Of a stretch of DNA of 64,000 nt, positions 5,875 through 56,849 are shown piece after piece. A program made the translations under genes and the position numbers. Position 1 is the first letter of the stretch. The number at the start of each line of letters is the position of its first letter. Where the stretch lies: IMG/VR virus record IMGVR_UViG_3300008997_002311, positions 62,001-126,000 of that record; one strand, given 5' to 3'. A model generated the notes under the pieces. It was not told the origin of the DNA. It did no database searches and saw only the letters and a program-made list of their open reading frames with translations. The stretch comes from a virus.

Positions 5875-6714
5875 ATGCCGAAGCATAATAAAAAAAGAAA
5901 TGTTGGAATTATCTATGAACAACTACTTTCTTCTCTATCACGCGCTTTAGTAGAGGGCAAAAATGGAGAAGTTAAAATAGTAAAAGGAATCATTGATAAA
6001 CACTTCAAGCCTGGAACAGAGCTCTATAAAGAGTTTAGGCTTTTTCAAGCTATGGTTAAAACAAAGGTGCCTCGAGAGTCTTTAGCTATTAAAATATTAG
6101 GAGAGGCAAAAACAGCTTCTGTTAATAGAAATGCAAAAAAACTCCAAAGAGAAAAATCTATGTTGATAAAAGACATAAATTACAAAATGGGCAATTCTAA
6201 TTTTTATAACCAGAGAGTCCAAGAATATAAAGAATACGCAACCGTTCAAAATCTTTTAAACTTGTGGGAAAAAGGTGAGGCGGGATCGCTACAAGAAGCC
6301 ATCAGATATGAATCTTTAGTGCAGGACATGCTTCTAAGAGAAGAAGACCAGCATAATTTCGAAGATGAAAAAACTGAAGATGTAAATAAGCTAACTGTGA
6401 AAATAATGTTAGAAAAATTTAATAAAAAATATGATTCTAGCTTAAATCAAATGCAAACAAAAATAATTAAAGAATACGTTTTTTGTTCTGGAGAAAATTC
6501 TTTAAAGAGTTTATTAAACGAAGTAAAAATTGCTGCCATGCACGAAATATCCCAAGTTCCAAATTCGCATAGCAATAAGGTCATTTGTGAAAAAGTTAAC
6601 AAAGTTAAAAATAACATTTCTAGATTAGACGAAAATATTCATGATGACGAAAATATTTCTAGATTCTTGTTGCTTTCTAAACTTTCAGAAGAACTTAAGG
6701 AGGATTCAGTATGA
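5875..6714 (+). CDS. Conserved head-cluster protein of unknown function
   Basis: A 279-residue, lysine-rich, mostly helical protein between portal and prohead protease. The reading frame also allows ATG at 5863 inside the portal gene, but the ATG at 5875 has AAGGA four nt upstream and is preferred. It begins MPKHNKKRNVGIIYEQLLSSLSR, a positively charged end followed by amphipathic helices. It ends in an ATGA overlap with the protease gene. Position suggests a role in prohead assembly, comparable to the small core genes between 20 and 21 in T4, but sequence does not prove it. Confidence 0.75.
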   Translation: MPKHNKKRNVGIIYEQLLSSLSRALVEGKNGEVKIVKGIIDKHFKPGTELYKEFRLFQAMVKTKVPRESLAIKILGEAKTASVNRNAKKLQREKSMLIKDINYKMGNSNFYNQRVQEYKEYATVQNLLNLWEKGEAGSLQEAIRYESLVQDMLLREEDQHNFEDEKTEDVNKLTVKIMLEKFNKKYDSSLNQMQTKIIKEYVFCSGENSLKSLLNEVKIAAMHEISQVPNSHSNKVICEKVNKVKNNISRLDENIHDDENISRFLLLSKLSEELKEDSV

Positions 6715-7322
6715 GCGATTCTAAATTACATTTGCTCACGAGTTGGACTCCGTTTGAATATACTGTAGATCAAATTAAAGAATCTAGAGAAAATAACGGC
6801 GGAAAAATTTTAATGCGAGGCGTACTTCAAAAGTCTGATACGCTTAATCAAAACGGCAGAGTCTATCCTCGCGTTATCTTAGATAGAGAAGTTAGAAACT
6901 ATCAAAAATTCATAGCAGAAAATCGAGCGCTTGGAGAGTGCGATCATCCCGACTCTTCAGTTGTCGAACTTAAAAACGTGTCTCACATAGTAAGAGAAGC
7001 TTATATGGACGGAGATATATGCTATGGAACTGTAGAGCTTTTAGATACTCCAGCTGGAAAAATACTCCAGAGTTTAGTCGAATCTGGAGTGACTTTAGGT
7101 ATATCATCTCGAGGAGTTGGATCTACTAAAAATGAGGGAGATCACCAAGTAGTTCAAGACGATTTTCAATTAATTTGCTGGGATTTCGTTAGTGAGCCTT
7201 CGACTCCAGGAGCTTTTATGATGCGTGAAGGTGTAGAAGTTAGAAGGTCTGATTTAAATAAGCATTTTAATAAAACAGATAGAATTGATAGAATATTTAA
7301 CGATATTTTAGATTGGGAGTAA
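6711..7322 (+). CDS. Prohead core protease, gp21-like (U9/S78 family)
   Basis: Serine protease that matures the prohead by cutting scaffold, capsid and internal proteins, in T4 after (I/L)xE. The 203-residue protein has the family start (GRVYPRVILDREV near 50-61), a probable catalytic His79 in ECDHPDSS and Ser132 in the GISSRGVGS loop. T4 gp21 is 212 residues, so the length agrees. It starts in an ATGA overlap with the preceding gene and is followed 3 nt later by the next. Candidate substrates in this window are the capsid proteins (LRE61/A62) and the short helical N-termini of several small proteins. Confidence 0.9.
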   Translation: MSDSKLHLLTSWTPFEYTVDQIKESRENNGGKILMRGVLQKSDTLNQNGRVYPRVILDREVRNYQKFIAENRALGECDHPDSSVVELKNVSHIVREAYMDGDICYGTVELLDTPAGKILQSLVESGVTLGISSRGVGSTKNEGDHQVVQDDFQLICWDFVSEPSTPGAFMMREGVEVRRSDLNKHFNKTDRIDRIFNDILDWE

Positions 7323-7325
7323 AAA

Positions 7326-7781
7326 ATGTCAAATTATAGAACTGGCCCCGGTTGGAACTTTGCGCCGGAATACCAGTGTTCTGGCACGCCTTTTGTAACA
7401 TCAAGCAATTATGATGAAATCAGCAGTAGTGGTGTGGTAAGTGTTAAGTTTCCAACTGTTACAAGATGGGTCCAAATTAGAAATATCGGCGCTAAAGAAT
7501 TAAGAGTTGGTTTTACCGAAAATGGAGTTGATGGAAGAGGCGGGTCTGTTTCAGGCTCAGCCGTTGAAGCACAGGGTAATAGCCGCAATTATTATATAAT
7601 ACCAACCGGCTCACTTGACGGAACTTCCACTGTTTTGTGGGAGCTTCGTTGCGATAAATTGTTTTTTACATCGGGTGAATCTGGCGGAACTGGATTTTCA
7701 TTGGTAGCTGGGCTTACTAATATTAGACCTTCAGAATTCTTTAAACTCACAGGATCCCTTGGTTTCCGAGGAGTTGGATAA
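7326..7781 (+). CDS. Beta-rich probable virion protein
   Basis: A 151-residue Gly/Ser/Thr-rich protein with alternating hydrophobic strands (for example VTRWVQIRNIGAKELRVGF at 44-62) and few charged residues, the profile of a beta-sandwich surface or decoration protein. It lies between protease and small head genes with 3 nt and 1 nt spacing, which suggests late expression and a head role. No family was recognised; decoration is an inference from composition and place. Confidence 0.65.
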   Translation: MSNYRTGPGWNFAPEYQCSGTPFVTSSNYDEISSSGVVSVKFPTVTRWVQIRNIGAKELRVGFTENGVDGRGGSVSGSAVEAQGNSRNYYIIPTGSLDGTSTVLWELRCDKLFFTSGESGGTGFSLVAGLTNIRPSEFFKLTGSLGFRGVG

Positions 7782-8212
7782 TGGCAAAAATTTCAAAATC
7801 TATGTTGAAGGGCATCGTAAAAGAGTGCTTGGTAGAAATTCTTGCAGAGGGCCTTCTTGCAGACAGCCCTGCTTCAAGTCTAAAAGAGTCTAGATCTAAA
7901 ACAAGAACCAAAGCCGGCTCTAAAAAATCAACCCCCACTACTCGAAGGCCCGCATTAGATCATATTAAAATGCAGAAAAGAGAAGAATCTATCAATCCGA
8001 TAGTACCAGATGTAAAAGATCCCATAATGGCGAGTATTTTTGCAGATACTGCTGCTAATACATTTCAAACACAAGTATTAGCTGAGACAAAAAATTCTAC
8101 CGCCCAAAGGATGACCCACGGCGATGCTGCAACTAAAGCAATGGCCCAAAATGACCCAATGGACATCTTTGACGGTGCAGATAATTGGGCAAAATTAGCG
8201 TTTGATAAGTAA
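7781..8212 (+). CDS. Probable internal head protein with capsid-targeting-like N-terminus
   Basis: A 143-residue basic protein starting in a TAATG overlap with the previous gene. Residues 8-21 (MLKGIVKECLVEIL) form an amphipathic helix followed by AE, giving LAE|G, an (I/L)xE site of the T4 prohead protease type. The remainder is disordered-looking: Ser/Lys/Thr-rich to about 60, then Ala/Asn/Asp-rich helices. The same N-terminal pattern occurs at 8270, 40657 and 56559. In T4, internal proteins are sent into the prohead by such a short cleaved N-terminus; this role is inferred here. Confidence 0.6.
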   Translation: MAKISKSMLKGIVKECLVEILAEGLLADSPASSLKESRSKTRTKAGSKKSTPTTRRPALDHIKMQKREESINPIVPDVKDPIMASIFADTAANTFQTQVLAETKNSTAQRMTHGDAATKAMAQNDPMDIFDGADNWAKLAFDK

Positions 8213-8269
8213 AAAAAACGCGGGAAGATGATAAGTAATAAGGAACAACCCCGTTCTAGGAGTTTTAAA

Positions 8270-8560
8270 ATGTCGAAAAGAAGAAGCACAAAGAAATTAA
8301 CACCATCCCTTTTAAGAAGATTGGTATTGCAAGAAAGAAAGAAAATGGTAGAGACTTCTGACCCAGTTGCGTCAGGAGTTGAAGATCCATCTTATGTTCA
8401 CGCTGAAGAAGTAGATGCCGACGAACTTGCAGGTAGTTTAGAGAAAGATTTAGACCATCTCAAAGCTCTTAAAATTAAGGAAGGCAAACTTAGACGCGAA
8501 CTTACTAAAGTTCACGAAGCAAGAAAGCGCCTTGGTCGAAGAGTACTTAAAGCACTTTAA
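8270..8560 (+). CDS. Small head-cluster protein with helical N-terminal tag
   Basis: A 96-residue, highly charged protein. An in-frame ATG at 8228 exists, but the ATG at 8270 has AGGAG seven nt upstream and is preferred. N-terminal LTPSLLRRLVLQERKKM resembles the tags at 7781, 40657 and 56559 and contains LQE|R. The second half (about 50-96) is a predicted basic coiled coil (LEKDLDHLKALKIKEGKLRR). Scaffold-associated or internal head protein is the likely role from position; not proven. Confidence 0.6.
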   Translation: MSKRRSTKKLTPSLLRRLVLQERKKMVETSDPVASGVEDPSYVHAEEVDADELAGSLEKDLDHLKALKIKEGKLRRELTKVHEARKRLGRRVLKAL

Positions 8561-9792: not shown

Positions 9793-11481
9793 ATGAGCAA
9801 AAATCTTTATAACGAAGCCATCGCAGAAGCAAAACAACTGCGTGACATGGCTGAACAAAACGCAAAAAATAAAATTATTGAAGCCGTTACTCCTAGAATC
9901 AGAAGTCTTATTGAACAGCAGCTTATTGATGATGTTGAAGAAGAATCAGATTTAGTAATAGGGGATGAAGCAGAAGAATCTGCAGAAGAAATGGTAGATT
10001 TAGCAATTGAAGAATTGCCAATGGCTGCGCCGGCAGAAGAGCCACCCCCCGCTGCTCCCACTGTATCGATTACTGTTCAGGGTGATCTAGATATGGATCT
10101 TGGCGAGGGTGATGATGACGAAGAAGAAGATCTTATTTTAAGTCAAGAGTCTTTTTTGCGTTTAGAGAATTTTTTGCATAATGTGTCAAAAACAAAGAAT
10201 ATTTCTGGCCGTGTTGTTTCTTTATCTAGAAAATTCAACATGCTAAGAGAAGCGATTGATGGAGTAAATCTTAATAGATGTAGCTCTGTTGAAAAACAAA
10301 CAGCGATTATATTTTATGGTCGTCTGTTAGAAGAAGTTATTACTTTATCTAATAATTTAATACTTATGAAAGAGTCCATTGACAATAGACTCGAATTACA
10401 ATTAACTCAACTAATAAAGGAGATGAGCAAAATGTCTAGAAGACGTGACGCAGCAGCTTTCAGGAGACTCTTTGAAGAGTTAACAAAGGATGAGAGTCTT
10501 GAGGAAGTGGGCATGTTTGAACAAGAAGAAGAAGAAGTTGACCTCGATGTAGATGTCGAGGAAGACGTAGAAGTCGCAGCTGAACCCGATGTGGAAGCAG
10601 CTGAAGACGCAATATTAGATCTTGGGGCCGCACTCGGTCTCGACGTTGAAGTCGCACCAGCCGAAGAAGAGGTTGAAGTCGAGGAAGATGTCGAAGAAGA
10701 AGAAGAAATTACTTTAGAAAGTGATGATTCTGACGACGGGGACGGAGAAGATCTTGACGAAGTTTACGAAATTGATGAAGCTGCGCTACGTCGTGAGCTC
10801 TTTAAAATGAGAAGACTTCGTGAGCAAGAAGAGGGAAGAGCTGCCGCAGCCGATCCTGCACTTGCACATGGTGGAGAAGATGAAGGTGACGTTATTGTCG
10901 ATGTCGACGAAGACGCTCTTCTTAACGCTCTCGCTGATGAACTAGGTGATCCTGGAGTTCCTGCACCGCAGGTTGAAGCTTTTATTCGCCGTAGACTCCG
11001 CAGAGCAAGCCGCCAGTTAGCTGAATCACAGCGACGTAATCGTAGAACTCGTGGAACTCGTAGAAACAGAAGAATTTCAGAGTCACGTCGCACCAGAAGA
11101 GCTGCTCCAGCCCGTAACACTAAAAGAGCCGTCATGGCTGAAAGAACTGTTACTAAATTAAAGAAGCAGCTTGCAGAAATGAATCTTTTTAACGCTAAGC
11201 TTCTGTTTGCTAATAAGCTCATGCAAAATCGTGGGCTTTCAACAAAGCAGCAGCGTGTAGTAGTCGAAGCACTCGACAAAGCACGCACAATCAGAGAAGC
11301 CAAACTCCTTTATAAGAGTTTGAGTGCATCTCTAAATCGGGGTTCCGGTAAGACTCTATCTGAGAGTCGCTCCCGATTGCTCGCATCTTCATCCAAATCA
11401 ACCCGGTCAGGCGCGCCTGCCAGCAATGGGAATGAGGTAGATCGTTGGGCTTTACTCGCCGGGTTAACGTCAGACAAATAG
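9793..11481 (+). CDS. Prohead core scaffold, gp22-position protein
   Basis: Probable internal scaffold around which the capsid assembles, from its position directly before the capsid gene (gp22 in T4) and its composition. In 562 residues it has a helical N-terminus with SLIEQQL (about 36-42), a long acidic region rich in Glu/Asp to about 350, a strongly Arg-rich block at about 395-450 (RRRLRRASRQLAESQRRNRR), and a helical C-terminal domain (about 455-515, AEMNLFNAKLLFANKLMQNR) similar to the terminal domain of other large-phage core proteins. T4 gp22 is 269 residues, so this is about twice as long. Several (I/L)xE sites suggest cleavage to peptides during maturation. Confidence 0.75.
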   Translation: MSKNLYNEAIAEAKQLRDMAEQNAKNKIIEAVTPRIRSLIEQQLIDDVEEESDLVIGDEAEESAEEMVDLAIEELPMAAPAEEPPPAAPTVSITVQGDLDMDLGEGDDDEEEDLILSQESFLRLENFLHNVSKTKNISGRVVSLSRKFNMLREAIDGVNLNRCSSVEKQTAIIFYGRLLEEVITLSNNLILMKESIDNRLELQLTQLIKEMSKMSRRRDAAAFRRLFEELTKDESLEEVGMFEQEEEEVDLDVDVEEDVEVAAEPDVEAAEDAILDLGAALGLDVEVAPAEEEVEVEEDVEEEEEITLESDDSDDGDGEDLDEVYEIDEAALRRELFKMRRLREQEEGRAAAADPALAHGGEDEGDVIVDVDEDALLNALADELGDPGVPAPQVEAFIRRRLRRASRQLAESQRRNRRTRGTRRNRRISESRRTRRAAPARNTKRAVMAERTVTKLKKQLAEMNLFNAKLLFANKLMQNRGLSTKQQRVVVEALDKARTIREAKLLYKSLSASLNRGSGKTLSESRSRLLASSSKSTRSGAPASNGNEVDRWALLAGLTSDK

Positions 11482-11505: not shown

Positions 11506-13404
11506 ATGTCTAAGAAATTTACACTGAATCAGTTAACCGAGGGTATTCGTCAACGTAATGTTGGAACGGGTAACAGAAGGTTAATTGAAAAGTGGTCCCG
11601 CACTGGTCTCCTTAGAGGCCTTGAGGGCACCACTCGCGAAAATATGGCTACGCTGCTTGAAAATCAGGCATCACAGGTCTTACGCGAGGCTAACTCAATT
11701 TCCACCGGTGGTGGAAACTTAACTAGTTCTGGAGACCTCCGCGGTTTTCAAAACATTGCATTCCCAATCGTTCGTAGAGTTTTCGGCGGCCTGGTTGCTA
11801 ATGAGCTTGTATCTGTACAGCCCATGAGCCTTCCATCTGGCCTCCTTTTCTATCTTGATTACACCTACGGAACCAACGTTGGTGGTCGCGACGACTCAGG
11901 TATCGATGCATCTTACCCATCTGGAAGTTCAATTTACAATTCTCCAGTCGGTAAAGGCATACGTTCTGGTTCTCTTGGAATCGGCGGTCAGTATAATCTT
12001 GCTGGCTCTGGTTATTCAAGAGTACATAAGATTGCTTCGAGCGTAACGCTCCTTGCATCTGGCGCCTATATGGGGAATACAACATTCTCAGCTGACGCTA
12101 TCGATGAAGTAAGACGTATGGTCGCTACTGGTTCTGATGGCAAGCTTCTACAGTTCGATGAGCAGATTTGTAGAATTATTGAAGATAACCCCAACGATGC
12201 AGGCCTCGGCGTATTCAAGGCTTACTTTGTTGACTTTAGTTCAGGCAAGTTTAGTAATGCAGACGCCACTATGGTAAAAGACTTTGCTCTTATACCACCT
12301 GATGGCACTGCGCCGACTATTCTTTCACCAACCTTGAAATCTCAGGATATTCAAGCAAGTGGCGATAGAGTGCTTAATGTTCGTAGGCTTAATCAGCTTG
12401 GTAAGTGGGATGGAACTTCGTTCACCGCAGATCCGCTAGTTAGAGCTGGTGATGCTAACGCAGCTATTCTAATGATCGTTTCTGGTACTAAGGGCAGCAC
12501 GGCCGAGCAGACTTATAGCGTTGACTATGTTCTCAGCCCAAGTCTTGATGCAGGGTCAGATGGTGATGCTCTTACTATTCCAACCTTTGAGTCTAACTTC
12601 GCTACTTCGCCTTCACCAGAGATCCCAGAGATCGACATTAAGGTAGAGTCAATCGCAGTTACTGCAGTAACCCGTAAGCTCCGCGCTCGCTGGTCACCAG
12701 AACTCGCACAGGACTTGAATGCTTATCACAGTCTTGACGCTGAAGTTGAGCTTACTCAGATCCTTTCCGAGCAGATTGCTCTTGAGCTTGATAGAGAGAT
12801 CCTTAATGATCTACTCACTCAGGCTAAGACGAACTTCTACTGGTCACGTTCACCAGGCAAGTTCATGAACAAGAGAAATGGTAACCTTGTCACTCCTGGT
12901 GGAGCTGGTTCTATTGGTCCAAGCTTCACAGGCACCGTCCGCGAATGGTATGAGACTCTGGTCGAGACCATTATTGATGTTGCTAATGAGATCCACAGAC
13001 TTACTCTAAGAGGATCAGCTAACTTCATCGTAGTGTCACCCGACATCGCGACTATTCTTGAAGCGTCTGTTCTTTACCGTCCAAGCTACAGCTTAGATGG
13101 TGATGGCCAGGTTGGTACTCCAATGAGCATTGGTGCAGAGAAGATGGGAACCCTTAGTAACCGTTTCACGGTATACAAAGATCCTTACTTCCCACGCAAC
13201 AAAGTTCTCGTAGGATTCAAGGGCGGAAGCTATCTTGAGACCGGTTATGTATACGCTCCATACGTACCACTTATTGTCACTCCAACAATCTTCGCTCCAG
13301 AGGACTTCACCCCACGTAAGGGTGTTATGACTCGCTATGGTAAGAAGATGGTTCGTTCTGACTTCTATGGTACTGTTACAGTTGCAGATCTTAACGTAAT
13401 CTAA
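11506..13404 (+). CDS. Major capsid protein, gp23-like, copy 1
   Basis: Main shell protein (632 aa) of HK97 fold, T4 gp23 type by position after protease and scaffold. The N-terminus contains SQVLRE61|ANSIS, matching the (I/L)xE|A site where T4 gp23 is cut after residue 65. Residues 1-123 are identical in the second copy, 124-366 differ clearly, and 367-632 are almost identical. A strong AAGGAG ribosome-binding site lies upstream, and codons such as ctt/gct/aag are used more than in flanking genes, as expected for a very highly expressed protein. Confidence 0.95.
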   Translation: MSKKFTLNQLTEGIRQRNVGTGNRRLIEKWSRTGLLRGLEGTTRENMATLLENQASQVLREANSISTGGGNLTSSGDLRGFQNIAFPIVRRVFGGLVANELVSVQPMSLPSGLLFYLDYTYGTNVGGRDDSGIDASYPSGSSIYNSPVGKGIRSGSLGIGGQYNLAGSGYSRVHKIASSVTLLASGAYMGNTTFSADAIDEVRRMVATGSDGKLLQFDEQICRIIEDNPNDAGLGVFKAYFVDFSSGKFSNADATMVKDFALIPPDGTAPTILSPTLKSQDIQASGDRVLNVRRLNQLGKWDGTSFTADPLVRAGDANAAILMIVSGTKGSTAEQTYSVDYVLSPSLDAGSDGDALTIPTFESNFATSPSPEIPEIDIKVESIAVTAVTRKLRARWSPELAQDLNAYHSLDAEVELTQILSEQIALELDREILNDLLTQAKTNFYWSRSPGKFMNKRNGNLVTPGGAGSIGPSFTGTVREWYETLVETIIDVANEIHRLTLRGSANFIVVSPDIATILEASVLYRPSYSLDGDGQVGTPMSIGAEKMGTLSNRFTVYKDPYFPRNKVLVGFKGGSYLETGYVYAPYVPLIVTPTIFAPEDFTPRKGVMTRYGKKMVRSDFYGTVTVADLNVI

Positions 13405-13497: not shown

Positions 13498-15387
13498 ATG
13501 TCAAAAAAATTTACACTGAATCAGTTAACTGAAGGTATTCGCCAACGCAACGTTGGAACGGGTAACAGAAGGTTAATTGAAAAGTGGTCCCGCACTGGTC
13601 TCCTTAGGGGATTGGAAGGTACCACTCGCGAAAATATGGCGACCTTACTTGAAAACCAAGCATCGCAAGTACTTCGTGAAGCCAACTCAATTTCCACCGG
13701 TGGTGGAAACTTAACTTCGTCTGGAGATCTTCGTGGTTTTCAGAATATCGCATTTCCAATTGTTCGCAGAGTTTTCGGCGGACTAGTTGCTAATGAATTA
13801 GTGTCAGTTCAGCCAATGAGCCTTCCGTCTGGATTGCTTTTTTATCTAGACTACACATATGGAACCTCTGTAGGTGGCCAGTCTGATGGTGATTCTGCTA
13901 CGTACCCTTCAGGAAGCTCTATTTATAATGCTCCTACGGGTAAAGGCGTACGTTCTGGTTCTCTTGGAATCGGTGGCCAGTACAATCTTGCTGGCTCTGG
14001 TTATTCAAGAGTCCACCAGTTAGCTAACACTATTACTCTACTTGCTTCTGGAGCATACCAGGGAACTACTACGTTCTCGGGCGGTGGCACTAGCTATAAA
14101 CGCATGACCGCTACCGGTTCTGATGGTAAGCTTCTCCAGTTTGACGAACAGATTTGTAGGCTGATCGAAGATCATCCAAACAGCGAAGGCTTAGGCGTTT
14201 TCACTGCTGTTTTTGTAGACCTGAACTCTACTCAGTTTAGTAATGGTGATCTTTCAATGGTTAAGGATTTCGCTCTTATACCATCGGCATCCGCTATTAA
14301 CTTTGCAGGTCCCTCGCAGACTCTTAAAGATCAAGACGTTCAAATTTCAGGAAACAAGGTTATTAACGTTAGACGACTTAACCAGATTGGTAAATGGGAT
14401 GGAACTTCATTCACTCACGATCCGTTAACTAAGGCGGGTGATTCAAACGCTGCAATATTGATGATTATCTCAGGTACAGATTCTTTCTCTGAGGGAATGG
14501 ATATTGATTATATTTTATCACCAAGCTTAAATGTCGGCAGTGATGGAGACGCGCTAACGATTCCAACCTTTGAGTCTAACTTCGGTACTACACCTTCACC
14601 AGAGATTCCAGAGATTGATATTAAAGTTGAATCTATTGCGGTTACTGCAGTTACTAGAAAGCTCCGCGCTCGCTGGTCACCAGAGCTTGCTCAAGATCTT
14701 AACGCGTATCACTCTTTAGACGCAGAAGTTGAGCTTACTCAGATCCTTTCTGAACAAATTGCTCTTGAGTTGGATCGTGAAATTCTTAATGATCTACTCA
14801 CTCAGGCTAAGACGAACTTCTACTGGTCGCGCTCACCAGGTAAGTTCATGAACAAGCGGAGTGGCGCTCTAGTTACTCCAGGCGGAGCAGGGAACATTGG
14901 TCCAAGCTTCACCGGTACAGTTCGTGAATGGTATGAGACTCTAGTTGAGACCATTATTGATGTTGCTAATGAGATTCATAGGCTTACATTACGCGGATCA
15001 GCTAACTTCATCGTAGTTTCTCCAGATATTGCAACTATCCTCGAAGCTTCAGTTCTGTATAGACCTACTTATAGCTTGGACGGAGACGGCCAAGTCGGAA
15101 CTCCAATGAGTATTGGAGCCGAACAGGTTGGAACCCTTAGTAACCGTTTCACGGTATACAAAGATCCTTACTTCCCAAGAAATAAGGTTCTCGTAGGATT
15201 CAAGGGCGGAAGCTATCTTGAGACCGGTTATGTATACGCACCTTATGTGCCTCTAATCGTTACTCCAACAATCTTCGCTCCAGAGGACTTCACGCCGCGT
15301 AAGGGCGTTATGACTCGCTATGGCAAGAAGATGGTTAGAAGCGATTTTTATGGTACTGTTACGGTTGCAGATCTTAACGTAATCTGA
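13498..15387 (+). CDS. Major capsid protein paralogue, copy 2
   Basis: A 629-residue second capsid protein. The first 123 residues are identical to copy 1, including the LRE61|A62 site, and the last 265 differ at only a few positions (for example GALVT for GNLVT, AEQVG for AEKMG). The middle, about 124-366, is divergent with small insertions and deletions. T4 carries a vertex paralogue gp24, but far more diverged than this. A second hexon variant, a pentamer protein or an alternative surface are all possible. Own ribosome-binding site (AAAAGGAA) and a strong terminator after it. Confidence 0.93.
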   Translation: MSKKFTLNQLTEGIRQRNVGTGNRRLIEKWSRTGLLRGLEGTTRENMATLLENQASQVLREANSISTGGGNLTSSGDLRGFQNIAFPIVRRVFGGLVANELVSVQPMSLPSGLLFYLDYTYGTSVGGQSDGDSATYPSGSSIYNAPTGKGVRSGSLGIGGQYNLAGSGYSRVHQLANTITLLASGAYQGTTTFSGGGTSYKRMTATGSDGKLLQFDEQICRLIEDHPNSEGLGVFTAVFVDLNSTQFSNGDLSMVKDFALIPSASAINFAGPSQTLKDQDVQISGNKVINVRRLNQIGKWDGTSFTHDPLTKAGDSNAAILMIISGTDSFSEGMDIDYILSPSLNVGSDGDALTIPTFESNFGTTPSPEIPEIDIKVESIAVTAVTRKLRARWSPELAQDLNAYHSLDAEVELTQILSEQIALELDREILNDLLTQAKTNFYWSRSPGKFMNKRSGALVTPGGAGNIGPSFTGTVREWYETLVETIIDVANEIHRLTLRGSANFIVVSPDIATILEASVLYRPTYSLDGDGQVGTPMSIGAEQVGTLSNRFTVYKDPYFPRNKVLVGFKGGSYLETGYVYAPYVPLIVTPTIFAPEDFTPRKGVMTRYGKKMVRSDFYGTVTVADLNVI

Positions 15388-19116: not shown

Positions 19117-22100
19117 ATGGCTGAACAGACCTTCCGTTCTCCAGGGTTTTTTGAACAAGAGATAGATCTTTCACAGAGAGAGAAAGCTCCTGTAGGTACT
19201 CCTGCGGGTATTATTGGAACCTCACAAAAGGGTCCAGCTTTCGTACCTGTGATTGTCGGTTCTTTTGCAGATTTCGAAACGCGATTTGGTACATTAGATT
19301 CAAACCGTTTTGGTCCCTATGCAGTTAGAGAATACTTAAAAAACAAAGATGCAATAACTTATCTAAGAGTACTTGGTGCAGGATCTAACGACACCAGTTC
19401 TGAAATAAGCAACACACAAAATTATGGAATCGTTTCCAAAGCTGGATTCGTTGTTTCCGGGTCTCGGGTAGTTGGCTCTACCGGAGCGGGCAGTGGAGAT
19501 CAGCGACATCGCGGATGCGTGCAGTTCTTATGCGCTCGCCACTACCTTTCAGCTTCTGAAGGCTCAGTTGGATATCCAATTTTCGACGATAACGATTCCT
19601 TTCCGGGGCTGTCTTCTGTTAGTACCCGTGGAACTATCAACGTTATCAACTTAGTTCGTGGAATGATAATTCCAGCATCAGGAACTAGAGTTATGTTAGC
19701 TAATTGGGATGAATCTATTGGGGGGTCTTCATATTCGCCTCCAACTGAAGATATTGCTACTAGAAACGATAATCCAACCGCTGAAGCTTATAATACTTTT
19801 AAAATTATTATTTCTTCTTCGGCAGGTACAGGTTTTGCAAATGATGATGCTGTAGCTGGCTTTAGAATTTATTCAGCCTCTTTAGATCCGAATAATGACA
19901 ATTATATTTCTAAAGTCTTAAATACAGATCCGTGGAAGTTTGGAGAAGAGCAACATATCTTATGGGCTGATTTCCCTGTAGAAAATGAATTGGCTCCAGT
20001 ATCCGAGGGCGCAGGCGCCATTGGGATTCTTTCCGGTACAAACGCTACAAATGGGATTGGATTAAGCGAGAATTGGAGAGATTCTTTCGGTAGATTTGAT
20101 ACTAGATACACGGCACCACGAACACCATCTCTTATATCACAGCCTTTCGGTGGCACAGAATATGATCTGTTCCACTTTGAGTCTCTTTCTGATGGTTCCT
20201 ATGCAAACTCGAAGCATAAGGTCTCTATTGCCAATCTCCGGGCTTCTACAGACGAAAATTACCCATATGGTACTTTCGAAGTTCAGCTAAGAAAATTTGA
20301 TGATAACGACCTTTCAAAAGAAGTGATTGAGGTTTATCCAGAGTGTACTCTTGATCCTAAGAGTGATAGATTTATTGGACTTCAGATTGGTGATAAAAAA
20401 GTATTTTATGATTTTGACTCTGAAGATCCAGAAGAGCGTAGACTAGTAGTCGAAGGGAAATATCCTAATCGCTCTCCAAATATTAGAGTGGTAGTTAATA
20501 ACGCTGTATATAACGGAGAAGTTCCGAAAGCTTCCTTGCCTTTCGGTTTCCGCGGTATTCCAGTACTTAAAACCACTGATACATTTACTGATATTCCAAG
20601 CAGTACAATTACTGGCTGGGAAGGAGGCTGGGGTTCGACCGGCACAAGGGTTTGCGGAGTTTTGAACCGGGACACAGCTTCTGGACTTTCTGGTTCTATT
20701 TTACCTCCACTACCATATAGATTTAAGTGCACAAGAGGTCAAGTGGATTCATCTCCGGCATTTGCTGGTGATCCAGGCAAAAACGAGAGAGCAGATTCAA
20801 GACTTTATTGGGGAACAATGCCCACGCGTTTACCTCTCACAGCTTCAGTAACTCACGCTACTTATGATGCTAATATCGGAAGCTTAACCAACAACTTGGT
20901 TAAGGGATATACAACATTCCAGGGGATTGTGAAACTAGACAACTTAGTTACTGGCTCTGGTGCAGATGCGTTTAATAATAACAAGTTTACTCTTGCTAGA
21001 GTAGCTCTTTATAACACTGAGACAAACTTGAGCAAAATTACTGGCTCTGCCAATGAGCACATGCTCGATGCTGCGTATATTAGAAACGGAATTTATAGTT
21101 CTACTGATTATACACTTAGTGATGGCGTCAGGTCTGGAAGACTTACTTTGGCGACTTTAATAAATTCTAGTTCTATTAAGTTTAACCGGTTCCAAGATTA
21201 CGCGAAGTTTACTCTTCCGTTCTATGGCGGTTTTGATGGACTAAACGTTTTAAATAAAGCTAACGCGCTTATGAATGATAGAGCAGCCTCTACAGATCCA
21301 AAAGGTCTTGCTGGGGATGATCCACCGGGCGGTGGACTCGGTCTTGGCGGAACAGCTGGAAACGGATCAATGTCTGGGCTGGGACGCCAAAACAACGTAG
21401 TTTTCTCTTACAGAAAAGCTGTAGAGATTATGACTGATCCAATGATAGTCAACACTAATCTTCTTGCGGTACCAGGCATAAGAGATCCATTCATTACTGA
21501 TCTTGCTGCTGATAGAACTAGAGATTATTCAATGGCTATGTATGTTATGGACATTCAGCAGTACGACGAAGATGAAAATAGACTGTTTGATTCTGACACT
21601 GCGAAGCGAGATGTAAGAGAAACTGCCGAGCAGTTTGAAGGCCGTAGAGTTAATAACAACTATGCTGCGACTTACTTCCCCGACGTATATATCGATGACC
21701 CAGTTAATAATAAGAGTGTTTTAGTTCCTTCATCTGTAGTTGCTATGGGGGCTTTGGGTTATAACGACACTGTAGCATATCCTTGGTTCGCGCCTGCTGG
21801 ATTTAACCGCGGATCATTAGACAACGTTAGAAATACTGCGGTGAGATTAACTGCTGGAGATAGAGATGAGCTATATGATGCTAGAGTTAATCCTATAGCT
21901 AATTTTCCAAATGGCGGATTCGTCATCTTCGGCCAAAAGACCCTGCAGATCAACAAGAGTGCGCTTGACAGGGTAAACGTTCGAAGAATGTTACTTGAAG
22001 TCAAGAGATTAGTGGTTCAAGTAGCAGATAGACTGTTATTCGAACCAAACACACCGGCAACAAGATCGAGATTTATTTCTCAAGTTGCACCAATTTTAGC

Positions 22101-22281
22101 ACTAGTTCAATCACAGGCAGGTATAGAGAAGTTTTCTGTGGTCATGGACGACACAAACAATTCGCCACAAGATGTAGAGCAAAATAAACTGAATGGTAGA
22201 ATAGTGGTTGTTCCCACTCGTTCTGTTGAATTCATTGCTATTGACTTTATTATCACAAATAGTGGCGTATTGTTCATGTAA
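19117..22281 (+). CDS. Tail sheath protein, gp18-like, copy 1
   Basis: Contractile sheath subunit (1054 aa). The N-terminus FRSPGFFEQEIDLS and the following GTPAGIIGTSQKGPAFVPV (residues about 28-46) are typical of myophage sheath proteins, and the C-terminal domain (RMLLEVKRLVVQVADRLLFEPN, then VVVPTRSVEFIAIDFIITN) is the conserved polymerising domain. T4 gp18 is 659 residues, so about 400 residues are inserted in the central, surface-exposed domains. A ribosome-binding site GAGGAG lies upstream. A diverged paralogue follows directly. Confidence 0.95.
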   Translation: MAEQTFRSPGFFEQEIDLSQREKAPVGTPAGIIGTSQKGPAFVPVIVGSFADFETRFGTLDSNRFGPYAVREYLKNKDAITYLRVLGAGSNDTSSEISNTQNYGIVSKAGFVVSGSRVVGSTGAGSGDQRHRGCVQFLCARHYLSASEGSVGYPIFDDNDSFPGLSSVSTRGTINVINLVRGMIIPASGTRVMLANWDESIGGSSYSPPTEDIATRNDNPTAEAYNTFKIIISSSAGTGFANDDAVAGFRIYSASLDPNNDNYISKVLNTDPWKFGEEQHILWADFPVENELAPVSEGAGAIGILSGTNATNGIGLSENWRDSFGRFDTRYTAPRTPSLISQPFGGTEYDLFHFESLSDGSYANSKHKVSIANLRASTDENYPYGTFEVQLRKFDDNDLSKEVIEVYPECTLDPKSDRFIGLQIGDKKVFYDFDSEDPEERRLVVEGKYPNRSPNIRVVVNNAVYNGEVPKASLPFGFRGIPVLKTTDTFTDIPSSTITGWEGGWGSTGTRVCGVLNRDTASGLSGSILPPLPYRFKCTRGQVDSSPAFAGDPGKNERADSRLYWGTMPTRLPLTASVTHATYDANIGSLTNNLVKGYTTFQGIVKLDNLVTGSGADAFNNNKFTLARVALYNTETNLSKITGSANEHMLDAAYIRNGIYSSTDYTLSDGVRSGRLTLATLINSSSIKFNRFQDYAKFTLPFYGGFDGLNVLNKANALMNDRAASTDPKGLAGDDPPGGGLGLGGTAGNGSMSGLGRQNNVVFSYRKAVEIMTDPMIVNTNLLAVPGIRDPFITDLAADRTRDYSMAMYVMDIQQYDEDENRLFDSDTAKRDVRETAEQFEGRRVNNNYAATYFPDVYIDDPVNNKSVLVPSSVVAMGALGYNDTVAYPWFAPAGFNRGSLDNVRNTAVRLTAGDRDELYDARVNPIANFPNGGFVIFGQKTLQINKSALDRVNVRRMLLEVKRLVVQVADRLLFEPNTPATRSRFISQVAPILALVQSQAGIEKFSVVMDDTNNSPQDVEQNKLNGRIVVVPTRSVEFIAIDFIITNSGVLFM

Positions 22282-22322: not shown

Positions 22323-25300
22323 ATGGCTGAATTAACTTTTAAAAGTCCGGGAGTTGCAACAAGGGAGATTGACCTTTCAGGTCCGACTAGTGTTGCCCCT
22401 CAAGGTACCCCAGCTGGAATAATCGCTACGGCAAATCAAGGTCGAGCTTTTGTTCCAGTGACAGTTGCTACTTACCAAGATTTCATCGCAACATTCGGAG
22501 CTTCCGATGGCGAGAAATTTGGACCGTTAGCTATGAACGAATGGATGAGAAATGCAAAGGCGGGTACTTATCTAAGAGTTCTCGGCGTTGGCGATGGAAA
22601 AAAGAGAATTACATCGCAAACAACAGATGCTGGTGGTTACGACATTTATCCTGGAGCAGTAAAAAATGCAGGATTTATTGTAGGGACCAAACAATTAAAC
22701 GATAAAGGATACCTCAACACTAACGTTTATGCTTACGACTATGGTGTAGCTGGCGGAACATATATGTTTGGCGCACTAATGTCTGAATCTGCAGGAAGTA
22801 CAATATTTTCCGATGCGGGTTTGCAGAGCAAAAATTATTCGTGGATTGGATATGGCGCAAAAGCAGTTCCAATTTTAAGAGCTGTTTTAATGGTTGCATC
22901 TGGTGTTACTTTAGGACTTTCTGGCAACTTAGTTAAAGGGCCGGGCGCTGGAGTTGTAACAGCTTCTGCCACAGGAACAAAGGGAATATTAAGCTCTGCG
23001 TTTGACGGCGGTGCAAGTTGGGGAGAGCTAGATCTTACCTCGGCAAACCACTACAACTTTACAATGCTGTTAAACGGGCACAAGAACACCTCGGCTTATC
23101 CAAATACAATTACAGCTTCTATGTCTCCTTGGAGCCCTTCATATTTTACAAATGTATTCAACACAGATCCAACTAAACTACAGCAAGCTGGATATTATAT
23201 GTACACGCATTATGATATTGCTCCAACTCTTGCGGTTGTTACTGGTACCGGAGTAGTTTCAGTCAATGCTTGGACCGGATCTTATGCAGCTTCGAACTAT
23301 GAGCCCTGCTTATTCGTTCTAACAGCTTCTGATGGAGTTAACCAAGGAACGACTACTAAACCTAATTACGAAAACTTCTCTGACAGGTTCCGAACAGCTT
23401 TCTCTCCTTGGGCAATATCTCAGAAATTCGGTGGAAAATATAAAAACTTGTTTAGATTCCACTGCTTAGATGACGGCCAATATCCAAACACTTTAACAAA
23501 AGTTTCTATTAGTAATTTTAAAAAGGGTGCCACTGAAGAAAATTATGGAACTTTCGATGTAGAAATTAGGGCTTTCGGAGACACCGACGCTGAAAAACAA
23601 GTTTTAGAATCCTACCTTGGAGTTAATTTAGATCCAACTTCTGATGATTACATTGCAAGAAGAATTGGAAATGTCCACCAATACTTTGATTTTGACCACA
23701 AGGTCGCAAGTCAAAAATTGGTAATTGAAGGCATTCATCCAAACATGAGTAAATACGTTAGGGTAGAAGTGCACAACGAAGTAGATGTTCAAAATACTCC
23801 GGTCACTTCCTTACCGATAGGATATCGTGGTCCTTATCACTTAGTTACATCTGGTTCAGACATATTCTCAGATCCAGGTTATCCTGCAATGAATACTATT
23901 ACAGGCTCAGCTGCTGACGCTGACGGTAGTGGGGTCATGGCCCAAGGAACTGTAATCGCGCAATCAACTTGGGGCGAAAGAATGGTAGAACCCCCTATCC
24001 CTTATAGACTTTGTATCTCAAACAACACAGGAGATAAAAGAACGGCTAATAGCTCTTATTATTGGGGTGTCCAGTTTACTAAGCAAGATAGGATTTATGA
24101 AAAAGGCCCTAACGCTAGTAACGTTTTGGAAGAGTCATTAGCTTCTTATACTAAATACTTTCCTCGGTTCGCCACCGGCCAACGACACGTTTCAGTCGGG
24201 AATAACGCCGGAGCTTTAGACGCTAGTGGAACCGTATTAGACTCAGATAAATTTAATAACAATATCTTCACGCTCGAAAGAGTTCAAGTTCACACTAAAT
24301 CTTCAGAAGACAAAGTAGATTCTAAAGAGTGGGCATTCTCAGTCTATAGAAGATCAGGGGTGTTAAGTTCTTCACTTCTAAAGAGCGATGGAACTTATTC
24401 AACTGGTCGCTTCTTAAATGTCGATAAAGACTTTGGAGATGTAGCTTCTCGCAAATACATGAAATTTACGATGTTTATGCAGGGAGGATTTGACGGCGTT
24501 AATATCTTCGATGAAGATAAAGCTAAGCTTAATAATGCTGCTGCATCCCGCGAGATGGATGATGAGAACCAAGGCTACGCGCAAGGTCCAACAGTTGCAA
24601 CTTACATGAAAGCTATCGATGTAATGTCTGAAAAATCAGATGCTGATATTATGCTCTTAGCTATTCCTGGAATCCGCGAGACAAAAATTACTGATCACGC
24701 ACTAGACAGAACTGAAGAGCGTTTCGATGCTATGTACGTCATGGATATTGAAGAAAGAGACACTCAGAATAATGTAGTAACTGGATCTCTAGAGATAATT
24801 GGTGTTAATAACACTGTTACTAATTTTAAATCTAGAAATCTTGATAGCTCATTTGGAGCTGCTTACTTCCCAGACACCTATATTACTGATCCAGCGACTG
24901 GAACCAATGTAAGGTGTCCACCATCAGTTTCAGTTTTAGGAGCTATGTCGTTAAACGATGCAGTTGCATATCCATGGTATGCTCCAGCAGGATTTACTCG
25001 AGGCGCTCTGTCTACTACTCTTTGGGCTCACGTCCAGTTGAGTCGAGCTAATTTAGACACACTTTATGATGCTGATATTAACCCAATAACAAACTTCCCA
25101 ACTTCTAACGGGGTCGTAGTATTCGGTCAAAAGACAATACTCCGGTCTGCTAGCGCTTTGGATAGAGTAAACGTTAGAAGGCTTCTTATCGATATTCGTA
25201 GAAAAGTTAGAAAAATTGCAGATACTTTCCTCTTTGAGCCTAACCGAGAAGATACTCTTGCTAGATTCTCTGCTTCAGTAACGCCTGTTCTTACAAGAAT

Positions 25301-25472
25301 TCAGCAACAGCAGGGTCTCGATAGGTTCAAGGTCTTAATTGACACCACAACCACCACCCAGGCTGATGTAGAAAATAATACTATTAGAGGAAAAATATTC
25401 TTGCAGCCCACTCGCTCTGTCGAGTTCATATCTCTTGATTTCGTTGTTACAAATAATGGGACAGAGATTTAG
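22323..25472 (+). CDS. Tail sheath protein paralogue, copy 2
   Basis: A 1049-residue second sheath protein. N-terminal LTFKSPGVATREIDLS and GTPAGIIATANQGRAFVPV, and the C-terminal RLLIDIRRKVRKIADTFLFEPN, align with copy 1, while the middle (about 100-750) has diverged strongly. Both copies keep the ends needed for the sheath mesh, so both could polymerise. It has its own AGGAG site 41 nt after copy 1 and is followed by the tail tube gene. Possible roles are alternating sheath layers, a specialised ring, or functional divergence of the surface. Confidence 0.93.
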   Translation: MAELTFKSPGVATREIDLSGPTSVAPQGTPAGIIATANQGRAFVPVTVATYQDFIATFGASDGEKFGPLAMNEWMRNAKAGTYLRVLGVGDGKKRITSQTTDAGGYDIYPGAVKNAGFIVGTKQLNDKGYLNTNVYAYDYGVAGGTYMFGALMSESAGSTIFSDAGLQSKNYSWIGYGAKAVPILRAVLMVASGVTLGLSGNLVKGPGAGVVTASATGTKGILSSAFDGGASWGELDLTSANHYNFTMLLNGHKNTSAYPNTITASMSPWSPSYFTNVFNTDPTKLQQAGYYMYTHYDIAPTLAVVTGTGVVSVNAWTGSYAASNYEPCLFVLTASDGVNQGTTTKPNYENFSDRFRTAFSPWAISQKFGGKYKNLFRFHCLDDGQYPNTLTKVSISNFKKGATEENYGTFDVEIRAFGDTDAEKQVLESYLGVNLDPTSDDYIARRIGNVHQYFDFDHKVASQKLVIEGIHPNMSKYVRVEVHNEVDVQNTPVTSLPIGYRGPYHLVTSGSDIFSDPGYPAMNTITGSAADADGSGVMAQGTVIAQSTWGERMVEPPIPYRLCISNNTGDKRTANSSYYWGVQFTKQDRIYEKGPNASNVLEESLASYTKYFPRFATGQRHVSVGNNAGALDASGTVLDSDKFNNNIFTLERVQVHTKSSEDKVDSKEWAFSVYRRSGVLSSSLLKSDGTYSTGRFLNVDKDFGDVASRKYMKFTMFMQGGFDGVNIFDEDKAKLNNAAASREMDDENQGYAQGPTVATYMKAIDVMSEKSDADIMLLAIPGIRETKITDHALDRTEERFDAMYVMDIEERDTQNNVVTGSLEIIGVNNTVTNFKSRNLDSSFGAAYFPDTYITDPATGTNVRCPPSVSVLGAMSLNDAVAYPWYAPAGFTRGALSTTLWAHVQLSRANLDTLYDADINPITNFPTSNGVVVFGQKTILRSASALDRVNVRRLLIDIRRKVRKIADTFLFEPNREDTLARFSASVTPVLTRIQQQQGLDRFKVLIDTTTTTQADVENNTIRGKIFLQPTRSVEFISLDFVVTNNGTEI

Positions 25473-40656: not shown

Positions 40657-41439
40657 ATGAGAGAAGCTCAACTTAGAAAATATATTCAGAAAATTATAAA
40701 AGAGCAAGCTAAAAAAGAACCTCAAGAAACTGAGAAGCTTAAAGGTGGTAGATACAAGAAGGAAATTGAATCCTTGAAACTTGTTCCCCCTGGCGAACTA
40801 ATGAAACGCTTAAAAGCAAAGAAAGCATCGGGTGATTCGACCGGACAAAAGCTTGCTTCTTTTCTTGGTTCCGCTGCTGGTGGCGTAGAAGAAATGAGGC
40901 TAGTTTATGGTAAACCCATAAGAAAAGAAGACAAGGCCGGGCACCAGGGAGTATCAATCCCGCTCAATTCTATCAAGGGCGGAGCTGGAACAATTCCGCC
41001 AAGAGACGGAAGAAGATATATACAGCATACAGTAACTGCGGGTTTAGAATCTGGATATTTACCGCTCCCTAAAAAAGAAGTCCAAATAGAGATTTTTGGT
41101 AAGGGAGTTTTGGTATATGTGGCTAAAAAGAAATATTCGTGGGGCAAAGGAGAAAAGAAAAAAGAAGAAAAACCAAAAGATGAATCTCATCACGGAGTAG
41201 ATGAAGAGCTTTTGGGTGAGCCAGATCTTTCGCAAGAAGATGAAAGGCAGGACGATGAAACAAAAGACGAATATAGTGTTTCAGCTAACGTAGCCGGAGT
41301 TGTAACGCCTCTTGGGACTGGACCTGACGGCGGAAAAGGAAAAAAGAAGAAAAATTCTCCAAGAAAAAGAGCGATAGACGCTAATAAAAGAGCTTTCGGA
41401 GGCGGAGAGATATACAAGCCCGCAAAGAAAAATAAATAA
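40657..41439 (+). CDS. Lysine-rich probable internal head protein with N-terminal tag
   Basis: A 260-residue protein, basic at both ends with an acidic stretch at about 180-205. ATG 40657 has AAGG upstream; the in-frame GTG at 40630 lies in the previous gene. The N-terminus LRKYIQKIIKEQ resembles the tags at 7781, 8270 and 56559, with IKE|Q as a candidate prohead-protease site. A Gly-rich middle and a Lys-rich end (GKGKKKKNSPRKRAIDANKR) suggest DNA binding. Capsid entry is inferred from the tag; it lies outside the head cluster but carries a late-promoter-like motif. Confidence 0.6.
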   Translation: MREAQLRKYIQKIIKEQAKKEPQETEKLKGGRYKKEIESLKLVPPGELMKRLKAKKASGDSTGQKLASFLGSAAGGVEEMRLVYGKPIRKEDKAGHQGVSIPLNSIKGGAGTIPPRDGRRYIQHTVTAGLESGYLPLPKKEVQIEIFGKGVLVYVAKKKYSWGKGEKKKEEKPKDESHHGVDEELLGEPDLSQEDERQDDETKDEYSVSANVAGVVTPLGTGPDGGKGKKKKNSPRKRAIDANKRAFGGGEIYKPAKKNK

Positions 41440-50548: not shown

Positions 50549-50995
50549 ATGGCAAACATAAAAAATCGCTGGAGAACGATGAGTTTAGTTTCTACGCATC
50601 TGTGTAAAACTAGCGACGTTGGATTTCATGGAAATCTTTTTGGAGGTAAGCTTTTAGCTTGGCTCGACGAAGCAGGAGCTGCTTTATCGGCTGAGTTTAC
50701 AGAGACGGGAAAAATTGTTACGAAACATATTTCAGAAGTAAACTTTCAAAGCCCTGTCAGGCCAGGCCAGCTTATTAAGATTTATGGAAAGATTTTAAAA
50801 GTTGGAAAAACGTCTTTGACGATAGAAGTAGAAGCTAGGAGACACAGTATTTATAACGGAACGCAAAAACCAGTTTGTAAATGTCAGATGGTTTTTGTTA
50901 GAATCGATGGTGATGGAGAGGCTGTGCCTATCCCTCCCCATATTCACCAAAAATTCGCTCGGCCCATTGAAAGAGGAAATAAAGATGGAAAATAA
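50549..50995 (+). CDS. Acyl-CoA thioesterase, hotdog fold, YciA-like
   Basis: Probable hydrolase of acyl-CoA thioesters (148 aa). The hotdog signature is GFHGNLFGGKLLAWLDEAG (about 25-43), matching the (H/N)GxxFGGxLLxxxDxxG pattern of YciA/ACOT-type enzymes, followed by VNFQSPVRPGQLIKIYGKIL. One intact domain, length as in bacterial YciA. It is not usual in phages; it lies between the lysin and thyX genes, overlapping thyX by 11 nt, so it is in the same operon. The substrate is unknown. Confidence 0.85.
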   Translation: MANIKNRWRTMSLVSTHLCKTSDVGFHGNLFGGKLLAWLDEAGAALSAEFTETGKIVTKHISEVNFQSPVRPGQLIKIYGKILKVGKTSLTIEVEARRHSIYNGTQKPVCKCQMVFVRIDGDGEAVPIPPHIHQKFARPIERGNKDGK

Positions 50996-52174: not shown

Positions 52175-52414
52175 ATGTCTAGTTCTAATAAGTGCATTGA
52201 AGTCTCTGAATCGATATTAAAGTTAAGAACTTTAAGAGAAAAGCTCTGTAAAAATGACGATGAATGGAAAAAAGCTTTTGAAGTAAGAGACTATGTTATA
52301 AGTGGATTGCAAGAACTTCAAGACATGCTTGACGATGAAACAACAGCTAAAAAAGATTGTTCTTTAAAATTGAGAGAAATATTACATTACTTCAAGGAAA
52401 ACAACAATGTCTGA
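52175..52414 (+). CDS. Small helical hypothetical protein
   Basis: A 79-residue charged protein predicted all-helical (VSESILKLRTLREKLCKNDD, VRDYVISGLQELQDMLDDET). It is overlapped by the next gene by 8 nt, so the two are likely translated together. Family unknown. Confidence 0.55.
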   Translation: MSSSNKCIEVSESILKLRTLREKLCKNDDEWKKAFEVRDYVISGLQELQDMLDDETTAKKDCSLKLREILHYFKENNNV

Positions 52415-52727
52415 TCAAGATGGCTGGAGCGAATATTCTCGTTTAGTTCTTAAAGAGCTTGAAACCTTAGCGTCAAGCATACAATCTTTAAATTCTGAAA
52501 TTCAAGAGCTCAAACAAGAGATTGCTAGAATGAGAGAACGCGAAGACCGAGTTGACGAGCTTCGAGCGTGGAAAGAAAAAGTCGATGAAGTTGCTTCCCC
52601 ATCTCAATTACAAACTGTACTCAAAGAAGTAGATGATCTCAAACAGTTTAAAACGAAAGCAGTTACAATCTTTGCGGTTGTGCAGTTTGGCATGGCGTTT
52701 TTCGCTTGGGCAATGAAATTTATGTAA
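52407..52727 (+). CDS. Coiled-coil protein with C-terminal membrane segment; candidate holin-like protein
   Basis: A 106-residue protein: a long heptad coiled coil (about 12-50: SRLVLKELETLASSIQSLNS, then ELKQEIARMREREDRVDELR) and one C-terminal membrane helix (about 86-104, VTIFAVVQFGMAFFAWAMKF). This topology is found in XhlA-type accessory lysis proteins and some phage holin-like proteins. It lies 1.9 kb after the lysin. Lysis function is a topology-based guess. Confidence 0.5.
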   Translation: MSDQDGWSEYSRLVLKELETLASSIQSLNSEIQELKQEIARMREREDRVDELRAWKEKVDEVASPSQLQTVLKEVDDLKQFKTKAVTIFAVVQFGMAFFAWAMKFM

Positions 52728-52729
52728 AG

Positions 52730-52758
52730 ATTATTTGATTGTGTTATAATCAAATAAT
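52730..52758 (+). promoter_or_regulatory. Perfect hairpin with embedded extended -10 promoter at the sulfotransferase start
   Basis: ATTATTTGATT (52730-52740) pairs perfectly over 11 bp with AATCAAATAAT (52748-52758), 7-nt loop. The ATG (52757) is in the 3' arm, so read-through mRNA would hide the start. TGTTATAAT at 52742-52750 is an extended -10 element; a start 7 nt downstream would be exactly at the ATG, giving a leaderless mRNA. Confidence 0.5.
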
Positions 52759-53566: not shown

Positions 53567-53574
53567 GAGAAGAT

Positions 53575-56558: not shown

Positions 56559-56849
56559 ATGAATTCTTTACGTCTGTTAATTAGAGAGATTCTAAGAGAG
56601 CAAGTTGTTGGCTATACGCCGCCGTCTAAAGATGACGATGACAATAGCGGTTATATAGAGTTTGGCGATTTGTCGGCACCTTCGAAAGAAAAAACTTCTG
56701 AAACAGAAGATCCAGAAGATCAAGAACAGCTAAGCGCGCAAGAGCAACAATTAACTCAGCAGCGCCAGCAAGACATAGACAAAAAAGACGCTAATGCTGT
56801 AAACTACGACGGAAGGGAACTACAAAGATTAAGAAATTCAACAGGATAA
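56559..56849 (+). CDS. Small acidic protein with capsid-targeting-like N-terminus
   Basis: A 96-residue protein. The N-terminus MNSLRLLIREILREQVVGY is an amphipathic helix ending in ILRE|Q, very like LRKYIQKIIKEQ at 40657 and the tags at 7781 and 8270. The rest is acidic and Gln/Ser-rich, predicted disordered (PPSKDDDDNSGYIEFGDL, EDPEDQEQLSAQEQQLTQQR). Internal head protein or a small regulator; the tag favours capsid entry. No clear ribosome-binding site. Confidence 0.55.
   Translation: MNSLRLLIREILREQVVGYTPPSKDDDDNSGYIEFGDLSAPSKEKTSETEDPEDQEQLSAQEQQLTQQRQQDIDKKDANAVNYDGRELQRLRNSTG

Follow-up and report, generated by a model that had tools for sequence, protein, structure and literature searches.

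The window, meaning the whole stretch of DNA analysed (64,000 nucleotides, bases 62001–126000 of a 127,284-base IMG/VR virus record, contig label G000), encodes four proteins, starting at 7781, 8270, 40657 and 56559, that begin with a short helix ending in (I/L)xE, hereafter the tag. All four helices were found as the original prediction had described them, and the same module is enriched at the N-termini of dozens of unrelated proteins of the clade to which this phage belongs, usually ending like the clade's prohead-protease site. The four proteins had been called scattered, which holds for 40657 and 56559, both remote from the head genes, whereas 7781 and 8270 adjoin each other in the head-gene cluster, between the protease and a scaffold-like gene. 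Tags were scored with a weight matrix of 16 columns, built from 15 non-redundant tags that occur in contig G005 (257 kb) and containing no window sequence; a match was defined as a score of at least 10 within the first 40 residues, and the expected number was taken from the matrix's own rate at internal positions. The contigs searched, G000–G014, comprise the record and 14 further contigs, with genes called greedily as longest open reading frames (ORFs) of at least 50 amino acids, and the loci are partly redundant.

The first tagged protein (143 amino acids, 7781..8212; this gene and the other window genes listed with coordinates in this and the next paragraph lie on the plus strand) has a conserved N-terminal tag and C-terminus, a variable middle, and further candidate sites LKE|S and LAE|T. 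Its tag, residues 1–23 (7781..7849, MAKISKSMLKGIVKECLVEILAE|G, ending EILAE|G), has a matrix score of 11.2. In an alignment of 32 family members L9, K10, E15, E19, E23 and G24 are invariant, the first residues are a strongly conserved part of the protein across 80 capsid-related loci, and the family is present in 13 of the 15 contigs and lies in the head cluster in relatives. AlphaFold2, run on the 32 aligned homologs, predicted a helix at residues 6–27 and gave low confidence beyond it, with a mean predicted local distance difference test (pLDDT) score of 86 for residues 1–10, 93 for residues 11–20 and 70 for residues 21–30; a Foldseek search with this model and a tblastn search of the first 25 residues against named phages produced no match. 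The neighbouring protein is small and basic (96 amino acids counted from the ATG at 8270, 8270..8560), and by eye the ribosome site AGGAG favours this start over the in-frame ATG at 8228. Its tag, residues 1–22 (8270..8335, MSKRRSTKKLTPSLLRRLVLQE|R, ending LVLQE|R, matrix score 11.2), has an uncertain cut, and the E of LQE is invariant in nine aligned sequences. A homolog of this protein in G007 (L161:992-1393) bears the helix in two successive copies (TSKTLKKIILEEKKRLEEE, TPGKLRQIVLSEKRRIEEA). The two remote proteins are candidate packaged cargo. The first (260 amino acids, basic, 40657..41439, matrix score 17.5) has its tag at residues 1–16 (40657..40704, MREAQLRKYIQKIIKE|Q, ending IIKE|Q), and by eye AGGTG precedes the ATG at 40657, while the longest ORF begins at a GTG at 40630; a homolog of its body in G008 (E-value 1e-4) is tagged too. 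The second (96 amino acids, acidic, 56559..56849, matrix score 13.0) has its tag at residues 1–14 (56559..56600, MNSLRLLIREILRE|Q, ending ILRE|Q, the same L-R-E as at the capsid site), and tblastn among the collected loci matched only itself. Since Pfam and PHROG searches gave no function for any of the four bodies, the role in host takeover or anti-defence that the original prediction gave them must be regarded as conjecture.

The head-gene cluster includes a gp21-type prohead protease of the Peptidase_S77 family (6711..7322; PF03420, E-value 5.3e-24, 85.2 bits against a cut-off of 27; PHROG 207, head maturation protease, 1.1e-48), which is presumed to be the enzyme that cuts the tags. The interval from this gene to the capsid holds five small genes and one large acidic gene product (9793..11481), a putative scaffold, gp22-like by position and acidity, with 16 candidate [ILVM]xE[ASGTQRK] sites and no match in Pfam or PHROG. 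The major capsid protein is of the gp23 type (11506..13404; PF07068, 7.8e-75), with a propeptide ending at LRE61|A62, just where it had been placed, and is followed by a second copy with the same propeptide (13498..15387), whose first 123 residues are identical to those of the first; the tandem genes align by blastn in two pieces, at 78% and 84% DNA identity. A T4-type portal (PF07230) is also encoded in the window. Among the best-scoring named phages for the capsid are Microcystis phage Mel-JY01, Flavobacterium immuto phages and Rhodothermus phage RM378, at 37–47% identity over part of the protein, and RM378 is placed in the Far-T4 group in passages of PMC4360716.

At a score of 10, four of the 97 genes of the record were matched against 0.21 expected, and these are exactly the four that the original prediction had picked out. 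Other cut-offs gave 8 genes against 1.75 (score 6), 5 against 0.93 (score 8) and 2 against 0.10 (score 12), the fifth gene, at 50895, scoring just 9.3 and looking spurious. The 13 held-out contigs gave 51 matches in 1181 genes (5.1 expected), of which 40 remain as other proteins because 11 belong to the 7781 family, and the training contig G005 gave 38 in 338 (2.3 expected). In capsid-centred loci of relatives, 66 of 922 genes were matched (4.0 expected). The 7781 family accounts for 35 of these and the 8270 family for 14, and the other 17 include a few scaffold-like false matches. The control sets were likewise capsid-centred stretches, as distinct from whole genomes, and T4-like loci of cyanophages showed no enrichment (2 of 993 genes against 4.3 expected). 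A strict DNA pattern, made of degenerate codons for M-x-I-T-E-[ST]-x-L-R-x-[ILV]-[IV]-R, was found in 96 stretches of viral contigs (88 contigs) and twice in a bacterial and archaeal genome collection, and its codon-scrambled control in no stretch of the viral contigs.

The end of the tag was compared with the capsid site, which reads L-[RK]-E in all 83 capsid N-termini of an alignment (near-identical rows kept, 49 of them distinct in this region), followed by A in 37, Q in 21, S in 13, V in 9, T in 2 and Y in 1. With the full matrix, [ILVMF]xE was found in 158 of 189 non-redundant tags, a count biased towards E and partly due to selection, because the matrix includes columns of E. The comparison was repeated with the E columns left out of the matrix and a looser cut-off, at which about one fifth of the N-terminal matches may be chance, and [ILVMF]xE then followed the helix core in 169 of 273 non-redundant N-terminal matches versus 59 of 228 internal ones (p 3e-16); against random N-terminal windows p was <1e-13. 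The residue after the E was A, G or S in 72 of the 158 tags, compared with 24.0% of 517 in other parts of these proteins. In the 7781 family the E23|G24 pair is invariant (32/32 aligned), and the ends LRE|Q of 56559 and IKE|Q of 40657 fit the clade's own pattern, since Q follows the capsid-site E in 21 of 83. A cut of 8270 after LQE is doubtful because K or R comes next in 9 of 9 aligned family members; a cut after MVE in its place was considered, the invariant E being that of LQE, and neither is convincing.

The consensus of the 189 non-redundant tags is approximately [KR]-[IL]-T-E-S-x-L-R-x-[IL]-[IV]-R-E-x-[LI]-L-E, and the commonest spacing puts the E ten residues past the L (75/158 tags). 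Clustering of 92 of the 93 matched proteins in G000–G014 (one body was too short) produced 46 body clusters unrelated by blastp at 1e-3, some false matches included. An alignment of 78 of the 93, leaving out 2 across piece borders, 9 of the 7781 family, 1 of the 8270 family and 3 doubtful ones, gave the N-terminal consensus M......LR..IRE.L.......E and, beyond it, single scattered columns only. Pfam at an E-value of 0.001 assigned 11 families to these 78, read as six proteins, one of them a false ligase match, and the remaining members had no Pfam family at this threshold. Among the bodies that carry the tag in relatives are a zeta-toxin/AAA kinase (4.6e-12), a cytidylyltransferase-like protein (2.2e-7) and a GNAT protein (9.9e-7), along with leucine-rich-repeat (LRR) proteins in tandem arrays. 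Two superoxide dismutase bodies (L094:18296, E-value 8.3e-18; L128:4850, 2.7e-18) have weak tag-like starts, with scores of 13.1 and 10.6.

The tagged genes of G005 lie mostly in clusters, at 0–2, 180–187, 198–202, 227–234 and 250–257 kb. Tandem tagged repeat proteins were seen at L428:2158-8991, L429:704-4091 and L431:5986-7994, all of one phage, with two kinds of N-terminal domain, one marked by VYHGT...YGKGLY and a second kind; their repeats match solved LRR proteins. When the G005 repeat proteins were compared with named phages, only the repeats matched, in Edwardsiella phage Edno5 and, for one query, also in EBPR podovirus 1. The YHGT...YGKGLY stretch looks PARP-like to us; searches of Pfam and of PDB profiles with the G005 repeat proteins gave no ADP-ribosyltransferase (ART) match, and AlphaFold2 modelled the domain mostly at pLDDT <50, with no support for an ART. 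The suggestion that the most numerous cargo is ART-like is thus a reading of the motif.

One protein family carries two different N-termini. A search of relatives showed that the family of one G005 repeat protein is also present in contigs L430, L432 and L433, and that the members in G005, L430 (variant MRLTRKQLKMLVESLLLEE there and in L432) and L432 bear the tag. In L433, a pair of neighbouring homologs (aligned at 25 and 27% identity, best tblastn E-value 2e-19) start instead with MLTFRKFLVEK and MITFRKFLVEK, and a neighbouring third gene begins with MIKFKEFILRE; T4 ipIII, according to the T4 record, starts with MKTYQEFIAEA. In an alignment of ten proteins of this family, nothing ahead of the body is invariant except the L and E of L-x-E. 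The T4-type pattern was found in 3 of the 17 genes of L433, compared with 4 of 1616 genes in G000–G014, 1 of 922 in capsid-centred loci of relatives, 5 of 993 in cyanophage loci and 1 of 1004 in podovirus loci. L433, a 17-kb contig, carries its own S77 protease (8.2e-29), and no gp23 was found in it. This natural swap, a single case, is the strongest single hint that the tag and an N-terminus resembling the T4 capsid-targeting sequence (CTS) may share a job.

We consider it likely that the tag serves these T4-like (Far-T4-type) phages as an N-terminal propeptide for capsid targeting, removed by the protease and similar in function to the T4 CTS, with another sequence. Of the capsid-targeting system first proposed, the shared module, its gp21-type site ending, its occurrence on dozens of unrelated proteins of the clade and the tag swap are borne out; docking, cutting, packaging and injection are steps we infer. 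The helix would dock a protein onto the scaffold core during head assembly, and cargo may share the docking surface used by 7781, since this conserved head-cluster protein bears the same helix. Upon closure of the head, the S77 protease (6711) would cut after (I/L)xE, the tag would leave, and the body would be retained with the DNA and later injected. We further lean, with less assurance, towards one transferable helix of ~15–20 residues serving as a common head pass, for a core protein as well as for large, fast-changing sets of injected effectors; as part of this, and held no more firmly, the set in one 257-kb phage may number more than 30, including tandem ART-like/LRR proteins, a zeta-type kinase and an acetyltransferase.

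The claim that all four window proteins are cargo is not supported. The proteins at 7781 and 8270 are conserved neighbours near the protease, and 7781 has its further candidate sites LKE|S and LAE|T, for which reasons they are probably core components, closer to gp67 and gp68, described as T4 core proteins in passages of PMC5694885 and PMC9958956, than to cargo. By analogy with gp67 and gp68, 7781 may be shredded, given its internal sites, and for 8270 alone a helix with another role is possible. The products of 40657 and 56559 are probably genuine internal proteins that are ejected.

Several observations weigh against capsid targeting by a cleaved tag. The podovirus control loci gave 15 matches in 1004 genes against 0.87 expected, although by eye these come down to three sequence types that recur in near-identical contigs, and some matrix matches are false, for example a DNA ligase in G005, which matched by chance and was ruled out as cargo. 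A recognisable [ILVMF]xE is missing from 16% (E-biased count) to 38% (E-blind) of the N-terminal matches, and the E is followed by Q in 40657 and 56559, by R in 8270 and by another E in the swapped-family members of G005. The excess of A, G or S after the E is weak against a helix-matched control (74/169 versus 18/59, p 0.05), and the L433 N-terminus is called T4-type solely by its likeness to T4 ipIII. PF03420 was found in only 8, and PF07068 (gp23) in only 9, of 22 large contigs seeded by the tag. Finally, the related isolate immuto, with 150 of its 160 kb covered, had no match at score 10 and one at 9.6, owing to which the tag system may fail to hold in the wider group.

The rival that survives best, which we judge unlikely, is that the helix is real and shared but addressed elsewhere, to a phage or host partner such as a polymerase, membrane or chaperone, with (I/L)xE a by-product of helix composition. 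The head link is made by sequence and many tagged genes are remote from those of the head, and the weak small-residue preference over the helix-matched control is what this rival would lead one to see; it has to contend with the location of 7781, the best conserved tagged protein, in the head cluster of relatives and with its invariant E|G, with the T4-type N-terminus that replaces the tag on a homologous body, and with the excess of [ILVMF]xE over internal helices. Still less probable is a tag that targets the head core without always being cut, a helix for assembly that scaffold, core and internal proteins would share: the capsid-like ends of both remote window tags, L-R-E and I-K-E, and the invariant E-G pair of the 7781 family argue for cutting, while the K or R after the invariant E throughout the 8270 family and the sixth to third of N-terminal matches without the xE motif would suit an uncut helix. 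Chance, by which four of many short amphipathic N-terminal helices were picked out, is the least probable of all and unlikely for the clade, given the held-out enrichment, the 96 stretches against 0 for the scrambled pattern and the cyanophage loci without enrichment, although weak matrix matches occur at internal positions too and the podovirus loci exceed expectation.

Returning to the tag as a protease-removed targeting propeptide, its link to the protease was followed in further contigs. PF03420 was present in 16 of 20 contigs selected by capsid. The 22 tag-seeded contigs, of at least 50 kb, came from 80 of the 96 stretches with the strict DNA pattern, contigs already collected being excluded, and eight more contigs of at least 50 kb among the other 16 stretches fall outside the 22. 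An exclusive link between tag and protease does not follow, as 14 of the 22 are without PF03420; those without PF03420 or gp23 may be fragments. Homologs in G000–G014 show four of the 13 contigs that lack gp23 to be relatives of the group (genes with such a homolog: G021, 55/110; G027, 40/137; G031, 55/118; G040, 51/115). An HK97-type protease was found in none of the 22, with positive controls, and a T4 portal in none of 14 tag-seeded contigs, in a search whose controls were silent as well but whose family did match in G000.

Some further features of the head and tail genes were seen. The protease genes of L098 (G005, 88364-90076) and L158 (G006, 52204-53874) encode 570 and 556 amino acids and contain an intein-like insert (start C-V.., end W-T-G-N before C) that splits the conserved GE|CDHP, a stretch that we take to be the active-site region of the prohead protease. 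In Flavobacterium phage immuto, two genes beside the protease (L169:23578-24660 and 25241-25468) have starts that end near (I/L)xE-like sites (HFIAEA, KFLKES), and because of these segments immuto may use yet another targeting N-terminus. In the window, two adjacent large genes (19117-22281 and 22323-25472) are alike at the start (MAEQTFRSPGFFEQEIDLS, MAELTFKSPGVATREIDLS) and are presumably duplicated tail sheath genes.

No description of the tag was found in the literature, most subscription journals being outside the search, and the terms sought led to no such passage in the Far-T4 genome paper (PMC4360716) and a jumbo-phage survey (PMC7824862). Proteins that enter the cell with phage DNA are usually identified by virion proteomics, which is difficult when the phages are uncultured. 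Should the tag prove to be a packaging signal, the question of which proteins are injected becomes a sequence search; on the wider reading of a common head pass, the injected effectors of very many uncultured phages could be recognised by their first 25 residues. The tag would then also bring to light arrays of candidate effectors that could enter screens for takeover and anti-defence, and would provide a second, independent cargo tag for delivery by phage heads.

Among known systems, the ejection proteins of the phiKZ-like phage SPN3US resemble the tagged proteins in having N-terminal propeptides that are cut by the prohead protease and for which a targeting role has been suggested; they differ in length, several of the propeptides there exceeding 100 residues and one having 20, according to passages of PMC5694885, whereas the window tags are predicted to be ~14–23 residues long. 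The candidate cargo also recalls T4 Alt, packaged and injected according to part of PMC5512222, and other packaged host-modifying enzymes ('polyvalent proteins'), in that it includes enzyme-like bodies (zeta-toxin/AAA kinase, cytidylyltransferase-like, GNAT, and the repeat proteins with the PARP-like motif), while Alt itself has a different N-terminus. The closest likeness is to the T4 CTS, of about ten residues and conserved in IPII and IPIII, which places proteins in the scaffolding core, where short N-terminal peptides are cleaved off by gp21 (passages of PMC3012670, PMC5694885 and PMC9958956). Both are short N-terminal segments with an (I/L)xE-like end, borne by unrelated proteins in phages with an S77 protease and a gp23-type capsid. 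They differ in sequence, T4 ipIII, ipI and alt scoring −7.2, −1.3 and −2.4 on the tag matrix, and in the numbers reached in this clade, where a single 257-kb contig has up to 38 matrix matches against 2.3 expected.
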